55,991 nucleotides of DNA from Longimicrobiales bacterium (GTDB lineage Bacteria > Gemmatimonadota > Gemmatimonadetes > Longimicrobiales > RSA9). Position 1 is the first letter of the stretch. The number at the start of each line of letters is the position of its first letter. The notes below the pieces were generated by a model. The model was not told the DNA's origin, searched no databases, and worked only from the letters and a program-made list of their open reading frames with translations. Below are positions 39,317 to 55,714 of the stretch, piece after piece. A program made the translations under genes and the position numbers. The DNA lies in NCBI GenBank assembly GCA_035764935.1, contig DASTYK010000099.1, forward strand, positions 1 to 55,991, read 5' to 3'.

Positions 39317-39898
39317 TCAGGCCGCCTCGTCTGCCGGCAGCGGCTGCAGCGCGCGCAGCACTTCCTCTCCGTAGAACATCCGGATGTACTTGGCCTGCAC
39401 GCTGGTGATGCGCCGCACCGCCCAGACCAGCTCGACGTAGTTCGGCTCGAGGGGCGGATGCAGCGGATGCATCGCCACTTCGATCGGCAGGTGGCTGCCC
39501 TTGCGGTTGTTGCAGGGGGAGCAGGCCGTCACGACGTTGTGCCAGGTGTTCGTCCCGCCGCGCGACATGGGCACGACGTGATCACGCGTCAGGAACTCCC
39601 GGTGCCGCAGGTCGGTGCGATGGCGCCCGCAGTACATGCAGCGGTAGCCGTCGCGAGCAAAGAGGAATGTGTTGGTGACCTGGCGGCGGAACTTCCTGGG
39701 AACGTGAACGAAGCGAACGAGGCGGATCACGGCGGGACAGGCGAGCTGTCGTTTCTCGGACCTGAACGTTCTACTCTCGTCCACCTCGAGGATTTCGGCC
39801 TTGCGGTCGATGACGAGGCGAAGTGCCCTGCGGATCGGCAGGATCGTCAGAGGCTCGAACGATGCGTTCAGCGCCAAACACCCCATGGCCAAGCGCAT
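39317..39898 (-). CDS. HNH endonuclease
   Basis: A 193-residue HNH nuclease. The zinc knuckle is CMYCGRH and CSPCNN, enclosing the active site TRDHVVPMSRGGTNTWHNVV. The N-terminal half (LALNASFEPLTILPIRRALRL) is typical of the stand-alone RecB-unrelated HNH proteins found in many aerobic bacteria, of unknown biological role. It converges on the Yip1-like gene six bases away and follows priA on the same strand by 168 bases. Confidence 0.88.
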   Translation of the reverse strand: MRLAMGCLALNASFEPLTILPIRRALRLVIDRKAEILEVDESRTFRSEKRQLACPAVIRLVRFVHVPRKFRRQVTNTFLFARDGYRCMYCGRHRTDLRHREFLTRDHVVPMSRGGTNTWHNVVTACSPCNNRKGSHLPIEVAMHPLHPPLEPNYVELVWAVRRITSVQAKYIRMFYGEEVLRALQPLPADEAA

Positions 39899-40066: not shown

Positions 40067-42430
40067 TTACAGGAGCGATACCGGATCGCGGTCGAGGATC
40101 AGGCGCAGCTCCGCTCGACCGGGCCGGAGGGGGTAGCGCTGCAGCAGCCGGCCGGCCGCACCGATCGCGCGCGCTGCGCTCGAGCGCACCACGAGGTGCC
40201 AGCGCCAGCGGCCGCGCACCCGGTCGATGGCGCAGGGCGCAGGCCCGATCAGCTCGACCGGGGCCTGCGGCGGCAGTGCGGACTGCAGCCAGCTCGCGCA
40301 GTGCTGCGCCGTATCGGTGACGGCGCGCTCGTCCGTGCCGCTCAGCACCACGTTGAGCAGCCGGGCGAGCGGTGGATAGGGTGGGCTGCGCCGCTCGGCC
40401 AGCTCGTGCTGCGCGAAACCCTCGAAGTCGTGCGTGACCGCGCACTCGATCGCGTAGTGGTGCGGCAGCGACGTCTGCACGATGACGTCCCCGCCCTTCG
40501 GCCCCCGGCCGGCCCGGCCGGCGACCTGTGTCAGCAGCTGGAACGTCCGTTCGCTCGCCCTGAAATCCGGCAGGTTCATCGCGATATCCGCATTGACGAC
40601 GCCGACGAGCGTGACGCCCGGGAAATCGAGTCCCTTGGCAATCATCTGGGTGCCGAGCAGGATATCGATCTCGCCACGTTCCACGCGCTCCAGGATCTCG
40701 TGGTGCGCCCATTTCGCAGAGGTCGTGTCGACGTCCATGCGCGCGATGCGCGCGTGCGGGAAGCGCTCCGCGACCTCCCGTTCGACCTGCTCCGTGCCCA
40801 CGCCGCGATACGACAGGTCCGCACTGCCGCAGCGGTCGCAGCGTTCCGGCGGCGCTTCCTCGTGAAAGCAATAGTGGCAGACGAGACGCCGTCGGGCGCG
40901 ATGGTACGTGAGCGTCACGTTGCACTGCGGGCAGTGCCATACCGCGCCGCACGAGCGACACTGCACGAAGGTGGAGTAGCCGCGCCGGTTGAGCAGCAGG
41001 ATCGTCTGCTCGTCGCGCGCGAGTCGCTGGCGGATCGCATCGACCAGCACGGGTGAAAGGCTGCCATCCTGCCGGGGCGCGCTGCTCACGTGCGGGCTGC
41101 TCGTGCGTGCAGCCACCCCACGGCCGTGCGACTGCGCGTCCTCGATGCGCCTGCGCAGGTCGACGACCTGCACCGGTGGAAGCGGCCGCCCCTCGACACG
41201 ATCGGGCAGCCGCAGCAGCTCGTACTTGCCGCGCCCGACGTTGTGCCAGCTCTCCAGCGACGGCGTCGCACTGCCCAGCACACAGACCGCGCCCGCGAGC
41301 CGCGCGCGCACGACGGCAAGCTCGCGCGCATGGTAACGCGGCGCTTCCGACTGCTTGTAGCTCGCCTCGTGCTCCTCGTCCACGATGATCGCGCCGAGGT
41401 TGGCCACCGGGGCGAAGATCGCGGAACGCGCGCCGATCGCGACCCGCCGCTCCCCGTTGCGCAGCGCACGCCACGCGTCGTAGCGCTCGCCGTCGGAGAG
41501 CGCCGAGTGCAGGACGGCGACGACGTCGCCGAACTCGGCGCGGAAGCGCGCGACCGTCTGGGGCGTGAGCGCGATCTCGGGCACGAGCACGATCGCGCCG
41601 CGCTCCTGGCGCAGCACTTCCTTGAGCAGCTCGATGTAGACGAGCGTCTTGCCGGAGCCGGTCACGCCCAGCAGCAGGTGCGGCAGGGGTGCCGTCGATG
41701 CGGCCAGGAGCTGTGCGACGCTGTCGCCGCCGGGTTCCGTGTCCTGGGCTGCGCCGCCGAGCGGTGCTGCGGCCGCGTGCGTCGCGGCGACCAGTCGCGC
41801 GATCGCTTCCGCCTGCGCCGCCGTTGGCGTGTGCGTCGATGGCGGCTGCGGCGGCATGGACGCAAAGGGATCACGCACGAGCGGCTCGTCGTGCACCGTG
41901 ACGAGCTGCTTCTCCACGAGTCCGTTGAGCACGGCCGACGAGAAGCCCAGCTCGTCCGCGAGGTGCGCGGCATCGAGGGACCCGCCACTCGCCTCGAGCA
42001 CTTCGTAGCACTCGCGCTGGCGACGCGCGCGACCGAACGTCTCGTCACGCTGCTGCAGGCTGGGCAGCTCGCGCGCGATGCGGACGACGCGCCGGGTGCG
42101 CACGGGCTCCTTCGTGCGCGCGGTCTCGGTGAGCAGCGTGGGCACGGCGGTCCGCAGCATGATGCCCAGCGACGCGAAGTAGTAGTCGGCGGCCCAGCGG
42201 CAGAGGGCGAGCAGCTCGGGCGTGACGCTCGGTGCTTGCTCCAGTACGCGCTCGATCGTGCGGATCCTGTCCGGCGCACGGCGCCCCGGCCGCGCGGGGC
42301 CCACGACCCAGCCGATCAGCCTGCGTCCGCCGAACTGCACGCGCACACGCGTGCCGGGCGCGACCTCCTCCTCCGCACGGTAGGTGAAGGTGCGCGCCGG
42401 CGGCACCGGCAGCGCGACTTCTACGAGCAT
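40067..42430 (-). CDS. priA: Primosomal replication protein N' (PriA helicase)
   Basis: A 787-residue replication-restart helicase. The N-terminal 3'-DNA-binding domain opens VEVALPVPPARTFTYRAEEE. The helicase core has Walker A GVTGSGKT and the DEEH box IIVDEEHEASYK. Between the lobes lies the zinc cluster CRSCGAVWHCPQCN, then CHYCF and CDRCG. Motifs GTQMIAKGLDFP and QVAGRAGRGPKGGDVIVQT follow. Length is normal. The stop of the GvpL/F-like gene lies one base upstream of the ATG, so these genes are cotranscribed. Confidence 0.96.
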   Translation of the reverse strand: MLVEVALPVPPARTFTYRAEEEVAPGTRVRVQFGGRRLIGWVVGPARPGRRAPDRIRTIERVLEQAPSVTPELLALCRWAADYYFASLGIMLRTAVPTLLTETARTKEPVRTRRVVRIARELPSLQQRDETFGRARRQRECYEVLEASGGSLDAAHLADELGFSSAVLNGLVEKQLVTVHDEPLVRDPFASMPPQPPSTHTPTAAQAEAIARLVAATHAAAAPLGGAAQDTEPGGDSVAQLLAASTAPLPHLLLGVTGSGKTLVYIELLKEVLRQERGAIVLVPEIALTPQTVARFRAEFGDVVAVLHSALSDGERYDAWRALRNGERRVAIGARSAIFAPVANLGAIIVDEEHEASYKQSEAPRYHARELAVVRARLAGAVCVLGSATPSLESWHNVGRGKYELLRLPDRVEGRPLPPVQVVDLRRRIEDAQSHGRGVAARTSSPHVSSAPRQDGSLSPVLVDAIRQRLARDEQTILLLNRRGYSTFVQCRSCGAVWHCPQCNVTLTYHRARRRLVCHYCFHEEAPPERCDRCGSADLSYRGVGTEQVEREVAERFPHARIARMDVDTTSAKWAHHEILERVERGEIDILLGTQMIAKGLDFPGVTLVGVVNADIAMNLPDFRASERTFQLLTQVAGRAGRGPKGGDVIVQTSLPHHYAIECAVTHDFEGFAQHELAERRSPPYPPLARLLNVVLSGTDERAVTDTAQHCASWLQSALPPQAPVELIGPAPCAIDRVRGRWRWHLVVRSSAARAIGAAGRLLQRYPLRPGRAELRLILDRDPVSLL

Positions 42431-42431
42431 G

Positions 42432-43121
42432 TCAGGGGCTGATGTGGACGAAATCGTATGCCGGCCACGGACCGGTCACGTCGAAGCTCAGCTCGGGGTG
42501 CGCGACGCCCAGGTCGTCGGCATGCTCGACGAACTCGATCCAGCCGGTGCGCTCGACCAGGAACGCCGCGCTCACCAGCCGCCGGCCTTCGGAGGGAAAT
42601 GGCACAGCCGCGCGCGCACGGCGGCGCATCTCGGAGTAGATCTGCATCGCGGCGTCGGCAAGCTCCGGCGCGGCCTCGGCCGCTGCAGGCGAGCTGATGT
42701 GCACGCGCAGCTCCCAGTAGCCGTCGAGGAAGGAGAGGCCCTCGTCGATCGCGACGTACTGGTCCTGCATCATGTGGATGAGCTGGCGACGGCCGCGGAA
42801 CACGATGCCGTAGGGCGCGGGCAGCACGCTGCCACGGTGCATCGCGGCCTCGAGCACGCGCTGGTGCGCGAGGAGGTGCTCGTCATCGAAGGGCGGCAGG
42901 TCGTACGTCGCCGGTGCGACGAGCGCCTCCAGGTCGCGGTAGCGCACGCGCTGCACGTCGCCGTCCGTGCTGCTGATGCGGCCGCCACGCCAGCTGCGCG
43001 CGCGGGCGATGCCGTAGAAGTACAGTGCCTGGTGCGCACGTGCCCCCTGCGGTTCGCCTGCGGCGTCCAGCGTCGTGTGCGCGTCCACGGGACCGCCCTC
43101 GTGCGCGTGCGGATCGTTCAT
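42432..43121 (-). CDS. Orphan GvpL/GvpF family protein
   Basis: A 229-residue protein of the GvpL/GvpF family, known as accessory proteins for gas vesicle assembly. Features are LYFYGIARARSWRGGRISS, LEALVAPATYDLPPFDDEHL, the histidine segment LAHQRVLEAAMHRGSVLPAP and a C-terminal GPWPAYDFVHI. No GvpA shell gene or other gvp gene lies in the window. It is sandwiched between an M24 peptidase (TGATG overlap) and priA (one-base gap). I chose ATG 43121; GTG 43124 is also in frame. Confidence 0.85.
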   Translation of the reverse strand: MNDPHAHEGGPVDAHTTLDAAGEPQGARAHQALYFYGIARARSWRGGRISSTDGDVQRVRYRDLEALVAPATYDLPPFDDEHLLAHQRVLEAAMHRGSVLPAPYGIVFRGRRQLIHMMQDQYVAIDEGLSFLDGYWELRVHISSPAAAEAAPELADAAMQIYSEMRRRARAAVPFPSEGRRLVSAAFLVERTGWIEFVEHADDLGVAHPELSFDVTGPWPAYDFVHISP

Positions 43122-44308
43122 CACAGCAGTGCGAGCATCTCCGACTGGGGGCCCGGCGTGGTCACGATCGGACCGCTCTCGTCGATGTACATGTTGATCT
43201 CGCTGCGGACGCCGATCTCGCCCGGGATGTAGATTCCCGGCTCGATCGAGAACCCGACACCGCGCACCAGCCGGCGGGTCTCGTGCGTCTCGAAGTTGTC
43301 GATGTTCGGGCCCATGCCGTGCGTGGAGCGGTCGATCGAGTGGCCCGTGCGATGGATGAAGTAATCACCGAAGCCGCGCTCGCGAATGACGCTGCGCGCC
43401 GCGTCGTCCAGCTCATAGCCCTGCACATCCCTGCCGGCCTCGAACGCATCCTGGACGTACTTCACTGCGGCCTCGCGCGCGTCGCGCACCGCCTCGAAGA
43501 CCTCGCGCGCCCGTGCGGGCACGCTGCGGCCGAGGCAGGCCATCCAGGTCTGGTCCGCGTAGACCATGTCGTCGGACTCCTTGGACCAGAGGTCGAGGAG
43601 CACGACGTCGCCTTCCTTGAACTCGGCGCCGCGGCCCTCCAGCTCGTAGTGGGGGTTCGCGGCGTTCACGCCGTTGGCCGTGATCGTGTCCGCCCCGACG
43701 CCCGCGCCTCGCTCGGCCAGGTCGGCGAGGACCCATTCGCGGAGGTCGCGCTCGGTGGGACGCAGCCCTTCACGCAACGTACGGGCGAGCCGCTCGAAGT
43801 TGGAGTGCGCGACCTGCGCCAGTACCGCACTCGCCCGCTTGTGGGAGGCGAGCTGCGCGTCCGTCCAGCTCGACGCGAACTGGGAGACGAGGTCACCCGA
43901 CGTCACGACCTCGACGCCGGTGCCGCGGATCAGCTCGACGATGCCGGCGGGCACGAGGTCCATCGCGGGGACCGCACCGTTCGCGGAGATCTCCATGCCG
44001 ACGCGCTTCGCGTCGCCGATCAGCCATGGCAGCGCCGCGTGCAATTCCCGCCAGCTGCTGTACTGCTGCTTTTCCCAGGCCCAGTGTGCGAACGGGTGCT
44101 GTTCGATGCGGTGTGTCAGCGCGCGGGGGGCACCCTCGGGCGGAATCAGCACGAAGTAGCGCCTCGTCAGGTCACCCAGGCCGAGCACGCCCATCGCCGC
44201 CGAGTTGCGCGCATGCAGATCGAAGAGCAGCCACCCGCCGAGACCGGCGTCGCGCAGGGCGGCCTGGATCTCCGGAAGATGGCTGCGGAGGTGGCTGAAG
44301 TCTGACAC
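43121..44308 (-). CDS. M24 family metallopeptidase, Xaa-Pro aminopeptidase-like
   Basis: A 395-residue two-domain protein: a creatinase-like N-terminal domain and a pita-bread catalytic domain. Metal ligands are recognisable in LLDLWSK and YADQTWM (Asp), FIHRTGHSIDR (His), SIEPGIYI (Glu) and VRSEINMY (Glu). The family includes proline aminopeptidases and creatinases; the exact substrate is open. Its stop overlaps the GvpL/F start. Confidence 0.92.
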   Translation of the reverse strand: MSDFSHLRSHLPEIQAALRDAGLGGWLLFDLHARNSAAMGVLGLGDLTRRYFVLIPPEGAPRALTHRIEQHPFAHWAWEKQQYSSWRELHAALPWLIGDAKRVGMEISANGAVPAMDLVPAGIVELIRGTGVEVVTSGDLVSQFASSWTDAQLASHKRASAVLAQVAHSNFERLARTLREGLRPTERDLREWVLADLAERGAGVGADTITANGVNAANPHYELEGRGAEFKEGDVVLLDLWSKESDDMVYADQTWMACLGRSVPARAREVFEAVRDAREAAVKYVQDAFEAGRDVQGYELDDAARSVIRERGFGDYFIHRTGHSIDRSTHGMGPNIDNFETHETRRLVRGVGFSIEPGIYIPGEIGVRSEINMYIDESGPIVTTPGPQSEMLALL

Positions 44309-44412: not shown

Positions 44413-45384
44413 TCACAGCGGCGGCAGTCCGGCCAGGGCCCGAATGGTCTGTACGACGGCCGTGCCGGTGCGGGCGGGATCGTAGCCTCCCTCCAGCACG
44501 CACATCGTCCGGGCGCGTGCGGATGAGGCCGCCTCGCAGATCATCGTGACCAGGGCGTGGACGTCGCCCGGCTCGAGCAGCAGGCCGCCCAGCGGATCGC
44601 GAGCCATGCAATCGTACCCCGCGGACACCAGGACCATCTCGGGCGTGAACTCGTCGAGGACGGCGGACAGCGCATCCTCCATCGCGCGGAGGTACGTCGG
44701 GCCATCCGTGCCCGCGGCGAGCGGGACGTTGCGCGTCGTGTTCCTGCCCGCGCCGGCGCCGCGCTCCTGTGCCGAGCCGGTTCCCGGGTACCAGGGCGAC
44801 TGGTGCAGCGAAAGGAAATAGACGGACGGATCCTCGTAGAAGACGTCCTGCGTGCCGTTGCCGTGATGTACGTCGAAGTCGACGATCAGCACGCGACCCG
44901 CGCCGCGGTGCTGCACCGCCCGCGCGGCCGCGGCCACGTTGTTGAACAGGCAGAAGCCCATCGCGCGATCCGGCATCGCGTGGTGGCCGGGCGGCCGCGC
45001 GAGCGCGAAGGAGGCATCGGCGTCGCCGTCGTACAGCATGCGTGCCGCCTCCCATGCGCAGCCGGCAGCGGCCAGCGCTGCATCCCAGCTTGCAGCAGAA
45101 ACGACCGTGTCGGGATCCAGGCGCTGCAGCTCACCGGTGTGGGCGGCCTGCGCGGCGCACGCGCGGATGGTGTCCACGTGCCGGGGCGTGTGCACGCGCA
45201 GCAGCATGTCCAGCTCGATGGGCTGCGGCTCGACGTGCACCATGTGCTCGAGCAGCGCGGGTGTGTCCTGCTCGAGCGCGCGCACGATCGCCGGCAGGCG
45301 GCCCTGGTGCTCACTGTGACCCCAGCCGGTGTCGTGCCGGCCGCACGCCGGGTGCATGACGAGCCCGACGCGGCGGATGCTCAA
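44413..45384 (-). CDS. Histone deacetylase family (class II-like) amidohydrolase
   Basis: A 323-residue enzyme of the arginase/deacetylase fold, like bacterial acetylpolyamine or acetoin-utilisation-type deacetylases. The catalytic pair is in RPPGHHAMPD; zinc ligands are in VDFDVHHGNGTQ and SAGYD; the tail GGYDP is conserved. It removes acyl groups from amines or lysines; the substrate is unknown. TTG 45384 overlaps the amidohydrolase stop (TTGA) and fits the family start IRRVGLVMHPACGRHDTG. The open frame beyond is a shadow of the amidohydrolase. Confidence 0.9.
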   Translation of the reverse strand: MSIRRVGLVMHPACGRHDTGWGHSEHQGRLPAIVRALEQDTPALLEHMVHVEPQPIELDMLLRVHTPRHVDTIRACAAQAAHTGELQRLDPDTVVSAASWDAALAAAGCAWEAARMLYDGDADASFALARPPGHHAMPDRAMGFCLFNNVAAAARAVQHRGAGRVLIVDFDVHHGNGTQDVFYEDPSVYFLSLHQSPWYPGTGSAQERGAGAGRNTTRNVPLAAGTDGPTYLRAMEDALSAVLDEFTPEMVLVSAGYDCMARDPLGGLLLEPGDVHALVTMICEAASSARARTMCVLEGGYDPARTGTAVVQTIRALAGLPPL

Positions 45385-46976
45385 GGCTGCTGCGACGTGA
45401 CGGGTGTGGTGCGCTTCGCGTCCGCGACCATGCGTGCGACATCCTCCAGCAGCGCCGGCGCGTCGTAGACGACGCCGTCCTTGATCGTCCAGCGGACGCC
45501 ACCGACCGTCACGGGCTGCCCGTTGTCGTCCAGCCGCGTCGTGCCGGTGCCGTAGAGCACCTTGAAGTTGTGCAGCGGGTTCTCCGGCACGATGACGAGG
45601 TCGGCGAGCATACCCGTGCGCAGCATGCCGAACTGCGGGCGCTCGCCCTTCGGCTCCATCAGCGTTTCCGCGCCGCACACGGTGGCGCTGCGTACGACCT
45701 CGAGCGGGTGGAAGCCGGCCTCCTGCAGCAGCTCGAGCTCACGGATATAGTCGAAGCCGTACAGCTTGTAGATGAAGCCGCTGTCGCTGCCGGTGCAGAC
45801 GCGACCGCCACGGTTCTTGTATTCGTTCAGGAACCGCATCCACACGCGGAAGTTCTCGCGCCACTCGATCTCGTCCTGCGTGGTCCAGTCGAACCAGTAG
45901 GAGCCGTGCGCCTCACGGCTCGGCTGGTAGAACTGCCAGAGCGAGGGCAGCGTGTACGGCTCGTGCCAGTCCGCATTGCGCGCGCGCATGACGTCGCGGT
46001 TGGCCTCGTAGATCGTGAGCGTCGGGTCCAGCACGAAGCCGAGCTCGAGCAGCTCTTCCATGACCGCGTTCCAGCGGTCACTGCCCGGCTCCGCTGCCTG
46101 GCGCCAGAGTCGGCCGGCCTGCGCGAAGCGATGGTACTCGTCGTTGTAGTTGTAGTCCGCAGGGTAATGCTGCACCGTGCGATCGTCGAACAACGCCTCC
46201 GGCAGACCGTACCAGTGCTCCAGGCTGCCGAGCCCGAGGCGCGCCGCATCCAGCGCATCCATCTGTGCGACGCCCGTCTGCGCGAGATGCGCCTGCGTGC
46301 CGAGGCCGCGTGCGCGCGCCTCGTCGATCAGTGCCTCCATCACGGGCGGGTCGTAGCTGCCCAGCTTGAAGCCGTCGACGCCCTGCTCCGCCGCCCAGCG
46401 GACGTACGCGCGTGCCTGTTCCGGGGTGTCGATCCGGCCGCGGTCCCAGCCGGCTCCGGGTCGCACGTAGACGAACACGCGGGGTGCTGCGATCTCGTTG
46501 CGCGCACTGCGCTCGCGTGCACGCAGCGTCCACTCGACGCCGTTGCCGCTGCCGGGATCGCGGATCGTCGTGACACCGTGCGCCAGCCACAGCTTGTAGA
46601 CGTACTCCGCAGGCGTGCCCTGCTGGGCGCCGCCGGTGTGCGCGTGCAGGTCGACAAAACCGGGCAGTGCGTACATGCCGTGCGCATCGATCTCGCGCGT
46701 GGCGCCCTGCGGGCGGCGCTCATCGTCGATGGGCAGCCCGGGAGCACCGACGCCGCGGATCTCGGTGATGCGGTTGCGCTCGATCACGATGTCGGCCGGA
46801 CCCCAGGGCGGTGCACCGGTGCCGTCGATGATCGTGACGCCGCGGACGATCAGCCGCTCGTGCGGGCCGTGCCCCTCGTCGCGCGCAGGGGCTTCCGGGA
46901 CCGTACGCTGTCCGGCCGCCGGCGCGGCGGCTGCGATCAGCAGTGTGGCGAGTGCGGCTGTGTGGAGGCGGAGCAT
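45381..46976 (-). CDS. Secreted amidohydrolase
   Basis: A 531-residue metal-dependent hydrolase with a signal peptide (MLRLHTAALATLLIAAAAPA). The beta-sandwich opening is RGVTIIDGTGAPPWGPADIV and the metal site DLHAHTGG. Later metal or substrate residues include QAHLAQTG and TGSDSGF. A C-terminal LADLVIVPENPLHNFKVLYG segment is typical of imidazolonepropionase/prolidase-like amidohydrolases. It acts outside the cytoplasm on an unknown cyclic amide or peptide. ATG 46976 begins the signal peptide. Confidence 0.9.
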   Translation of the reverse strand: MLRLHTAALATLLIAAAAPAAGQRTVPEAPARDEGHGPHERLIVRGVTIIDGTGAPPWGPADIVIERNRITEIRGVGAPGLPIDDERRPQGATREIDAHGMYALPGFVDLHAHTGGAQQGTPAEYVYKLWLAHGVTTIRDPGSGNGVEWTLRARERSARNEIAAPRVFVYVRPGAGWDRGRIDTPEQARAYVRWAAEQGVDGFKLGSYDPPVMEALIDEARARGLGTQAHLAQTGVAQMDALDAARLGLGSLEHWYGLPEALFDDRTVQHYPADYNYNDEYHRFAQAGRLWRQAAEPGSDRWNAVMEELLELGFVLDPTLTIYEANRDVMRARNADWHEPYTLPSLWQFYQPSREAHGSYWFDWTTQDEIEWRENFRVWMRFLNEYKNRGGRVCTGSDSGFIYKLYGFDYIRELELLQEAGFHPLEVVRSATVCGAETLMEPKGERPQFGMLRTGMLADLVIVPENPLHNFKVLYGTGTTRLDDNGQPVTVGGVRWTIKDGVVYDAPALLEDVARMVADAKRTTPVTSQQP

Positions 46977-53910: not shown

Positions 53911-55365
53911 TCAGTTCGCGCCTACGGCGCGCGCGACGTTGATGCGGCCCTTGCCGTAGTAGGCGGAGTTGCCACCCGCGATCGGGTCCGCCGAGTTGCG
54001 GATGTAGGCGCGCACCTGGGCCGGGTTGCGGCCGACATCCTCGACCGCGAGCGCGGCGAGGCCGGCGACGTGGGGGGTCGCCTGGCTGGTGCCGGCGACG
54101 CCAAACACGTAGTAGCCGTCCTCGCAGAAGTACAGGAAGCTGGTCTGCGGGCAGAGGGCGTATACCCACTCGCCAACGTCGCCGCCCGGGGCAGCAACAT
54201 CGATCGCCGAGCGGCCGTAGTTGGTGAAGCTGGAGGGCGCATTCTCCATGCGCGTCGAGGACACGCAGATCACGTGGGTCGCGTCGCAGTAGGTCGCGAA
54301 GAACGAGGGGATGTGCACGCGATCGACGATGTCACCCCTCTCGTCCTTGATAGCGATGTTGTGCTGCCGGTCGAGGTCGTTCGCGTCGTTTCCGGCCGCA
54401 ACAACGATCGTGACGCCCTGCTGCTTCGCATAGTTCATGATCGCGTTGTACGCCGCGACCTGGCCCGGGAACGCCGACTTACGGAACCAGCCGCCCAGGC
54501 TCATGTTGATCACATCCGCCCCGTTGTCGATTGCGTACAGGATCCCCTCGATCACACCGTGGCAGCCGCCGAATGCGCTGCACACCTTGACCGACATGAG
54601 CGTCGTCTTCGAGGTGACGCCCGCGAATGCCCAGGCATTGCTCGACACCTGCGTCGCCACGTTGGTACCATGGTAGTGCAGGTCGGTGCTCGGGTGGCGG
54701 CCGGGGAAGACGATGGACGTGATCAGGTCATCCAGCGGCTCGAACGACGTCGAGCGACCCAGGTCGACGAGCCCGGCCAGGTCCGGCAGCCCGTAGTCGA
54801 TGCCGGTATCGAGAATCGCTACCGTGACCGAGGGACTCCCCAGCCGCCCGGCGGCCCACGCCTCCGGCGCGTGTACCTGCCGCAGGTTCCACTGGCGGGA
54901 GAACAGGATGGCTGCGGCCGGATTGTTCGCGCTGCTCACCGCATCACCAGCCTGCATCGCAGAACCCAGTCCCCGCTCCGGCTGTGCGATCGCCGCGGGA
55001 GAGATGAGCTGCAGCGCCGCCATCGACTCGACGTACTGCGCACCGACGCGCGCTCGCAGCTGCGAGGCACCCGCCTCGTCCAGCCCGAGCACGACCGCGA
55101 TCCCGGTCTCGTGATTCAACGAAACGGTGCCGCCAAGTGCAGTAACCTGCGCTTCGAAGTCGGCGGGTGCACGCCCCCTGAACACCACGACGTGCTTGCC
55201 CGGGACCTGCGCGCGCAGTGCGTCGATATCGATGCCGTCCCGCGAAGTACCGGTCTCGTACGTTGCGACGTCCGGCGACAGCGCCGGCGCGACCGGGTCA
55301 TCCGCGCACGCGGCGAGGAGCGCGCTGCCAGCCAGGGCCAACGCAGTGAGCTTGACGTGCTTCAT
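53911..55365 (-). CDS. S8 family serine protease (subtilisin-like)
   Basis: A 484-residue exported protease with a lipoprotein signal (lipobox LLAAC). An inhibitor-like propeptide (about 45-120: GKHVVVFRGRAPADFEAQV) precedes the catalytic domain. The triad is visible as ILDTGID (Asp), HYHGTNVA (His) and GVAGTSQATPHVAG (Ser), with VVAAGND as the oxyanion Asn. The His motif reads HGTN in place of HGTH, retaining the catalytic His. Two ATGs lie at 55368 and 55365; the second has AGGAGG at better spacing. Confidence 0.93.
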   Translation of the reverse strand: MKHVKLTALALAGSALLAACADDPVAPALSPDVATYETGTSRDGIDIDALRAQVPGKHVVVFRGRAPADFEAQVTALGGTVSLNHETGIAVVLGLDEAGASQLRARVGAQYVESMAALQLISPAAIAQPERGLGSAMQAGDAVSSANNPAAAILFSRQWNLRQVHAPEAWAAGRLGSPSVTVAILDTGIDYGLPDLAGLVDLGRSTSFEPLDDLITSIVFPGRHPSTDLHYHGTNVATQVSSNAWAFAGVTSKTTLMSVKVCSAFGGCHGVIEGILYAIDNGADVINMSLGGWFRKSAFPGQVAAYNAIMNYAKQQGVTIVVAAGNDANDLDRQHNIAIKDERGDIVDRVHIPSFFATYCDATHVICVSSTRMENAPSSFTNYGRSAIDVAAPGGDVGEWVYALCPQTSFLYFCEDGYYVFGVAGTSQATPHVAGLAALAVEDVGRNPAQVRAYIRNSADPIAGGNSAYYGKGRINVARAVGAN

Positions 55366-55714
55366 CATGCCTCCTGGAGAGATTGCGGGGTTGGGCGCGT
55401 AAGTGCCCTCATGTGGCAGGCGGCCGGGCTGTCTCGGAGAGACCCGTGGCTTTGCGGACCGGCCTCGCGACCGGGGTGCCTTTGTGCAGCTACGTTGCTC
55501 GATCGTACACGCGGCATCTGCTGCCCACGGTACGGCAGATCAGGACCCGGCTATCGCGCCGGACTCGAATCGGTGCATGGTTTCGTCTGACTGGCAGGTG
55601 CGAAAACGATAAGGGGCCGGCGCAGGACCCGTCAAGCCGCGATTCCGGAGGCACGCCGGGGCTTGTCAGACCCGGCAGGCTCTCACAGGTCCGCGCGCCG
55701 CCCCTCGGCTCCTC
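55366..55714. other. Intergenic region, nothing identified
   Basis: About 350 bases between the ATPase end and the S8 protease start. It presumably holds the protease promoter, but I see no strong sigma-70 hexamers or convincing terminator. A short near-duplicate of CCTCTCACAG occurs at the ATPase 3' end. Confidence 0.5.

Follow-up and report, generated by a model that had tools for sequence, protein, structure and literature searches.

A solo GvpL/F-like gene kept beside priA in Gemmatimonadota

The locus described here raises the question of what a gene of a gas-vesicle protein family does between a metallopeptidase gene and priA. The window, i.e., the whole stretch of 55,991 nucleotides analysed from a Longimicrobiales bacterium, contains a solo GvpL/F-like gene (LF) at positions 42432..43121 of the (−) strand, with an ATG at 43121 and a product of 229 amino acids. 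The product matched the Pfam model PF06386 (GvpL_GvpF) with 115.2 bits (E 6e-33) against a cut-off of 23.6, in agreement with the family membership proposed in the initial annotation. The alignment consists of two stretches, covering profile positions 1–122 and 170–245, with positions 123–169 skipped.

The solo gene and its neighbourhood

In the window, LF is preceded by a gene for an M24-family metallopeptidase (43121..44308, (−); Pfam PF00557, 126 bits), whose stop codon overlaps the LF start in the sequence TGATG (43123–43119). Downstream, a single base (42431) separates the LF stop from the start of priA, the gene of the replication restart helicase (40067..42430, (−); TIGR00595, 634 bits against a cut-off of 230; Pfam PriA domains). 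Both junctions were read in the sequence as initially described. The first conserved gene of the locus is a histone-deacetylase-family gene (HDAC; 44413..45678, (−); Pfam PF00850, 299 bits), and an HNH endonuclease-type gene (39317..39898, (−); Pfam HNH_5/HNH) lies 3′ of priA; the latter is kept in several, not all, of the solo-type loci described below. In whole-genome searches with the GvpL/F, Gas_vesicle (GvpA-type), and GvpK models, LF was the sole match on the window’s contig, so the earlier remark that these 56 kb hold no shell or other gvp gene stands for these models. An antiphage defence role was considered and rejected, as LF, M24, and HDAC had no PADLOC match at E 0.001; the PADLOC matches obtained for kinase and HNH genes were to broad families. 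Elsewhere in the window, a c-di-GMP-I riboswitch (55416–55490, (−); 38.2 bits, cut-off 35) was detected just 5′ of a subtilase-family gene (53911–55368) and may place a protease under c-di-GMP control.

In the bacterium’s own family, LF was located beside priA in 12 of the 12 genomes searched, far beyond chance; in one of them (G005), only the C-terminal part of LF is left, at the edge of a contig and immediately ahead of priA. A protein match was obtained in 24 of 41 genomes (its own and 40 relatives), some of these matches being only to gvp-cluster copies. Within the own-family loci L007–L017, priA followed LF in 11 of 11 and M24 preceded it in 10 of 11 (L016 has no M24). A scan of genomes with the alignment A1, using one motif pattern, yielded 62 loci, comprising 57 of the solo type and five of the gvp type from other bacteria; the same scan with LF as a single-protein query returned no match. 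All solo-type loci were assigned to Gemmatimonadota or to taxa inside it, such as Kutchimonas, Roseisolibacter, and Longimicrobiaceae, save L047, L065, L077, and L100, which are labelled “uncultured” or “unidentified bacterium”.

The gene order over the 57 loci was HDAC, a SAM methyltransferase gene, optionally M24, LF, optionally a Ser/Thr kinase gene and an MR_MLE enolase-like gene, priA, and an HNH or ArgZ-like gene. Individual members are missing from some loci, and the following rates count only loci with enough flanking sequence. HDAC was located upstream of LF on the same strand in 33 of 34 loci (exception L064), and priA, again on the same strand, followed LF at no more than 3.5 kb in 35 of 40 (exceptions L049, L065, L089, L096, and L097, with priA of L065 on the opposite strand). 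M24 was directly upstream of LF in 16 of 50 loci, and a Ser/Thr kinase gene directly downstream in 34 of 50 (match start within 400 bases of the LF match end). Exactly one of these two arrangements was present in 42 of 43 loci and both together in none, the exception being L044; because the pattern follows lineage, it does not count as independent evidence. The initial annotation had joined LF to priA in an operon and suggested comparing the gene order of relatives. The link to priA proved real and, in L007–L017, invariant, but not exclusive: HDAC upstream and priA downstream are the more constant members, M24, the kinase gene, and the enolase-like gene vary in their presence, and LF is absent from a sister family.

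The junctions around LF are tight in relatives as well. An in-frame LF start (starts were picked mechanically) lies at most 10 bases from the M24 stop in 17 of 18 relatives’ loci with M24, and in the alignment-scan set the gene after LF has its closest in-frame start −10 to +30 bases from the LF stop in 26 of 40 loci. Such spacing suggests coupled translation of LF and its neighbours.

In the sister family (f2), the A1 profile search gave no match in six genomes. The priA gene was located in eight f2 genomes, and among the six loci read, M24 adjoins priA in four (L138, L139, L140, and L142). The two genes overlap by 4 bases in L140 and L142, and in L139 both matches lie inside one open frame; the remaining two loci gave no clear picture 5′ of priA. 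As f2 loci keep the neighbours without LF, LF can be regarded as an accessory member of the locus. In a genome of genus g62 (G061), the LF C-domain has been lost by an in-frame internal deletion (L134:6212–6592, (−)), leaving the N-domain and the end of the C-terminal motif, and this genome has a gvp cluster; the LF frames of three other g62 genomes are similarly short. The absence in f2 and the domain loss in G061 thus indicate that LF is dispensable. The HDAC–methyltransferase–priA neighbourhood is itself a conserved feature of many loci in the phylum, both where LF is present and where it is not.

The frequent kinase neighbour bears on one alternative explanation, according to which LF is a ferredoxin-like sensor or adaptor tuning neighbouring modification enzymes, namely the Ser/Thr kinase in Gemmatimonadaceae-type loci and M24, HDAC, or the methyltransferase elsewhere. 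Besides the 34 of 50 loci with the kinase gene directly 3′ of LF, it draws on the same locus of a g95 genome (L133), where an extra GvpF gene is followed by a PAS histidine kinase gene, and on the resemblance of the LF C-domain to ACT, PII-like, and S6 ferredoxin-like domains. However, the own-family loci L040–L044 have no kinase gene at the 3′ side of LF, so no single partner is constant, and matches to ferredoxin-like domains are common and indicate no function. We consider a regulatory partnership of this kind unlikely.

Gas-vesicle genes in the same genome and in the phylum

The genome containing LF (96% complete) has a gvp cluster on another contig (C51), composed of genes for GvpF, GvpG, an ArsA-like ATPase, two further GvpL/F proteins, three Gas_vesicle-domain proteins (GvpA/J/S-type), and GvpK. 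The initial annotation presented LF as a GvpL/F-family gene without gas vesicle genes, a premise that fails for the genome as a whole because of this cluster. The search for gvpA, gvpN, and gvpJ that it recommended recovered the three GvpA/J/S-type genes, and no GvpN match in the genome reached the cut-off. It had also named a full gvp cluster missing its GvpL/F as the finding that would speak against it; the C51 cluster holds three GvpL/F genes of its own. A role of LF as the missing GvpL/F of that cluster is thereby ruled out, and with three copies already in place, the cluster needs no fourth. A further feature of this cluster is a single protein with two ArsA-type ATPase stretches (L006:9648–11540).

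The C51 GvpL/F proteins belong to the same Pfam family as LF and have core residues in common with it, at an identity of 27–30%. They cover the Pfam profile in one stretch, whereas LF covers it in two, and their genes sit beside those for GvpG, GvpK, GvpA-type proteins, and the ArsA-like ATPase, whereas LF is encoded outside any gvp cluster, in the order HDAC–M24–LF–priA.

At a threshold of 110 bits, the A1 profile detected LF in 77 of 395 genomes of the phylum, and the next match scored 81; the 77 carriers are an undercount, since cut or interrupted copies (G005, G115, G188, and G102) and the short g62 copies score below 110 bits. GvpA-type and GvpK matches were present in 44 and 40 of the 395 genomes, respectively. 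Among the 77 carriers, GvpA was found in 27, GvpK in 26, and neither in 50, and of the 60 carriers with a completeness of 90% or more, 42 had no match to GvpA or GvpK. In the own family, LF was present in 12 of 12 genomes and GvpA in 6 of 12. LF is therefore not restricted to genomes with GvpA-type shell genes. Conversely, 17 of the 44 GvpA-positive genomes had no LF match of 110 bits; at least two of these are probable carriers, namely G115, whose LF is divided between two contigs, and G102, whose match falls in two pieces. LF carriers were commoner among GvpA-positive genomes (27/44) than among GvpA-negative ones (50/351), although these are raw counts confounded by lineage, as both traits follow families.

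Some genomes have gas-vesicle genes near the locus. Of the 27 genomes that have LF as well as GvpA, three (G049, G133, and G381) have them on the same contig, many contigs being short. In one genome each of genera g54, g62, and g76 (L131, L134, and L135), which are Gemmatimonadaceae-type, a gvp cluster lies about 7–15 kb upstream of HDAC on the same strand and on the same side of the HDAC–priA locus. The intervening genes in L131 encode a PAS histidine kinase, adenylosuccinate synthetase, a pyridine nucleotide-disulphide oxidoreductase, a tRNA-synthetase-like protein, and a protein with a weak peptidase M3 match. In genus g95, three genomes (L132, L133, and L136) carry an extra full-length GvpF gene. 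It is positioned between the enolase-like gene and priA in L133 (10844–14070) and L136 (3401–6450) and about 10 kb past the enolase-like gene in L132; after it comes the PAS histidine kinase gene in L133 and a gene of similar size in L136. No GvpA-type match was found near the extra GvpF in the L133 and L136 stretches read. These four genera belong to family f5, which is probably Gemmatimonadaceae, and their arrangements indicate that the locus is not entirely unconnected with gvp genes.

That proximity, the gvp cluster of the window genome, the Pfam family and fold shared with GvpF, and the enrichment of carriers among GvpA-positive genomes would fit a second alternative, in which LF assists gas-vesicle assembly, as a back-up or specialised factor, wherever a gvp cluster exists. 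It is made very unlikely by the 50 of 77 carriers without GvpA and GvpK, by the GvpA-positive genomes without a 110-bit LF (G115 and G102 being probable carriers), by the g62 genome that keeps its gvp cluster and yet has a truncated LF, and by the three GvpL/F genes already present in the window genome’s own cluster.

Fold, phylogeny and selection

An AlphaFold2 model of LF was built from 54 sequences and had a mean pLDDT of 88.4, with about 30 N-terminal residues at low confidence. Foldseek returned only three chains at E < 0.001, all from the GvpF entries 4qsg and 6l5d. With VIA-align, the model was superimposed on 6l5d with Z 21.1 (2.2 Å over 200 residues) and on 4qsg with Z 19.4 (2.3 Å over 197 residues), and the next match reached Z 9.9 over the C-domain alone; the program warned that its comparison list barely tests the LF N-domain. 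LF is thus predicted to have the complete two-domain (alpha/beta) GvpF fold. Searching PDB sequences with A1 produced a single match, at chance level (E 0.22). The GvpF proteins of Anabaena PCC 7120 (6l5d) and Microcystis aeruginosa (4qsg) have the two-domain fold in common with LF over the whole length, and their C-terminal end is placed as in LF; LF differs from them by its low identity (18–20%), by having no helical extension in the C-domain, and by its position outside a gvp cluster.

In PMC7204071, the C-domain of crystal GvpF is described as a modified ferredoxin fold, owing to a three-helix extension (alpha4, alpha5, and the start of alpha6). The corresponding site in LF spans residues 138–185 (42567..42710, (−)), as defined by the column spacing between E137 and A186. 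Of the 54 solo proteins, 52 have 45–60 residues in this segment and the remaining two have 71 and 79, versus 78–96 in 17 of 17 gvp-type proteins, and the flanking segments differ between the two groups by at most two residues. These lengths were measured from the alignment, as a pattern-based measure fitted only 26 of 54 solo and 9 of 17 gvp rows. Judged from these alignments, the C-domain helical extension of gas-vesicle GvpF/L is missing in the solo clade. The proteins of L096 and L097 were considered as long, ancestral-looking forms and rejected, because their extra residues are loops rich in few residue types and not a helical extension.

The solo proteins end in the motif TGPWP(P/A)YDF (residues 216–224; 42450..42476, (−)), in which T, G, P, W, P, Y, D, and F were invariant across all 54 solo sequences in alignment A3. 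It aligns with the C-terminal end of crystal GvpF; the tail of the cyanobacterial protein is described, again in PMC7204071, as inserted between the two domains. P103, R139, and D223 were fixed in 54 of 54 solo rows, whereas among the 17 gvp rows, P occurred in one, R in none, and D in two. The gvp rows had E at 137 and K or R at 141 in 17 of 17; in the solo rows, E was present at 137 in 46%, and H was the commonest residue at 141 (65%). R139 and D223 differ together between the two groups.

In an unrooted tree computed from 54 solo and 17 gvp-type proteins, a branch supported at 98/98 separated every solo row from the gvp-type rows; after removal of six long rows, 51 solo and 14 gvp-type proteins were likewise separated with support of 100/99 (unrooted). 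The C51 proteins fall outside the solo clade. Their second copy was the nearest row to it in the first tree (84/82), by an unsure long-branch join that the program flagged as possibly false, and was among the six rows dropped from the second tree. In 13 of 13 chosen pairs, dN/dS (Nei–Gojobori) ranged from 0.07 to 0.32, with 0.32 and 0.31 for the window gene against two relatives. LF is under purifying selection. This selection, the positions identical across 54 of 54 divergent solo sequences, and the retention of LF over several families make it highly improbable that LF is the decaying remnant of a former gvp cluster, retained between essential genes by accident, even though its absence from f2 with much of the locus intact, the C-domain deletion in the g62 genome, and the gvp clusters near the locus in some genera would fit such an origin.

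The only NCBIfam match of LF was to the GvpL equivalog NF045778, at 33.7 bits, far below the cut-off of 200. Since the C51 gvp-cluster GvpL/F proteins also fall short of 200 (65–98 bits), this cut-off alone does not separate LF from them. Sequence and fold place LF in the GvpL/F superfamily, but its context, co-occurrence, and anatomy are not those of a gas-vesicle GvpF or GvpL.

Function of the solo gene

LF has been kept beside priA, and many carriers have no detected gas-vesicle genes; it therefore very probably does a different job, outside gas vesicles. The non-vesicle role that the initial annotation had attributed to the family is supported for the LF subfamily, as one syntenic clade in which 50 of 77 carriers are without GvpA and GvpK matches, and not for the whole family, the C51 copies being members of a gvp cluster. 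Taken as a whole, the explanation that we favour, and consider probable, is that LF is a vertically inherited GvpF/GvpL paralogue working outside gas vesicles.

Such a paralogue would be produced along with the proteins of the neighbouring operon genes through coupled translation. As a small, soluble adaptor or holdase-like chaperone, it would use its two-domain core to engage a client protein at an amphipathic or hydrophobic segment. According to PMC11445434 and PMC7688916, GvpF is the main partner of GvpA, contacts its N-terminal half, and has been proposed to be its chaperone. The client of LF would differ from GvpA, and the binding mode may be like that of GvpF on the N-terminal part of GvpA. 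This adaptor or chaperone mechanism is tentative and is drawn from the fold and from analogy with GvpF.

The solo clade might also keep, or reveal, a non-vesicle function of the GvpF fold, with a compact core and a housekeeping client, from which the vesicle chaperone was possibly recruited; we regard this broader proposal as decidedly unlikely. The unrooted trees fit both directions, solo from gvp and gvp from a solo-like form, and a derived solo form is favoured because it was found in one phylum only (single-motif scan). In a search of PMC full text, none of the matches listed dealt, by title or start of abstract, with GvpF/L genes outside gas vesicles in Gemmatimonadota.

For annotation, genomes with LF alone are liable to be misread as having gas-vesicle genes, and the subfamily deserves a separate name. 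According to PMC11445434, the crystal structures of GvpF left its working in gas-vesicle assembly unexplained. LF is a natural, simplified GvpF core without vesicles, in which it may be asked what the fold itself binds.
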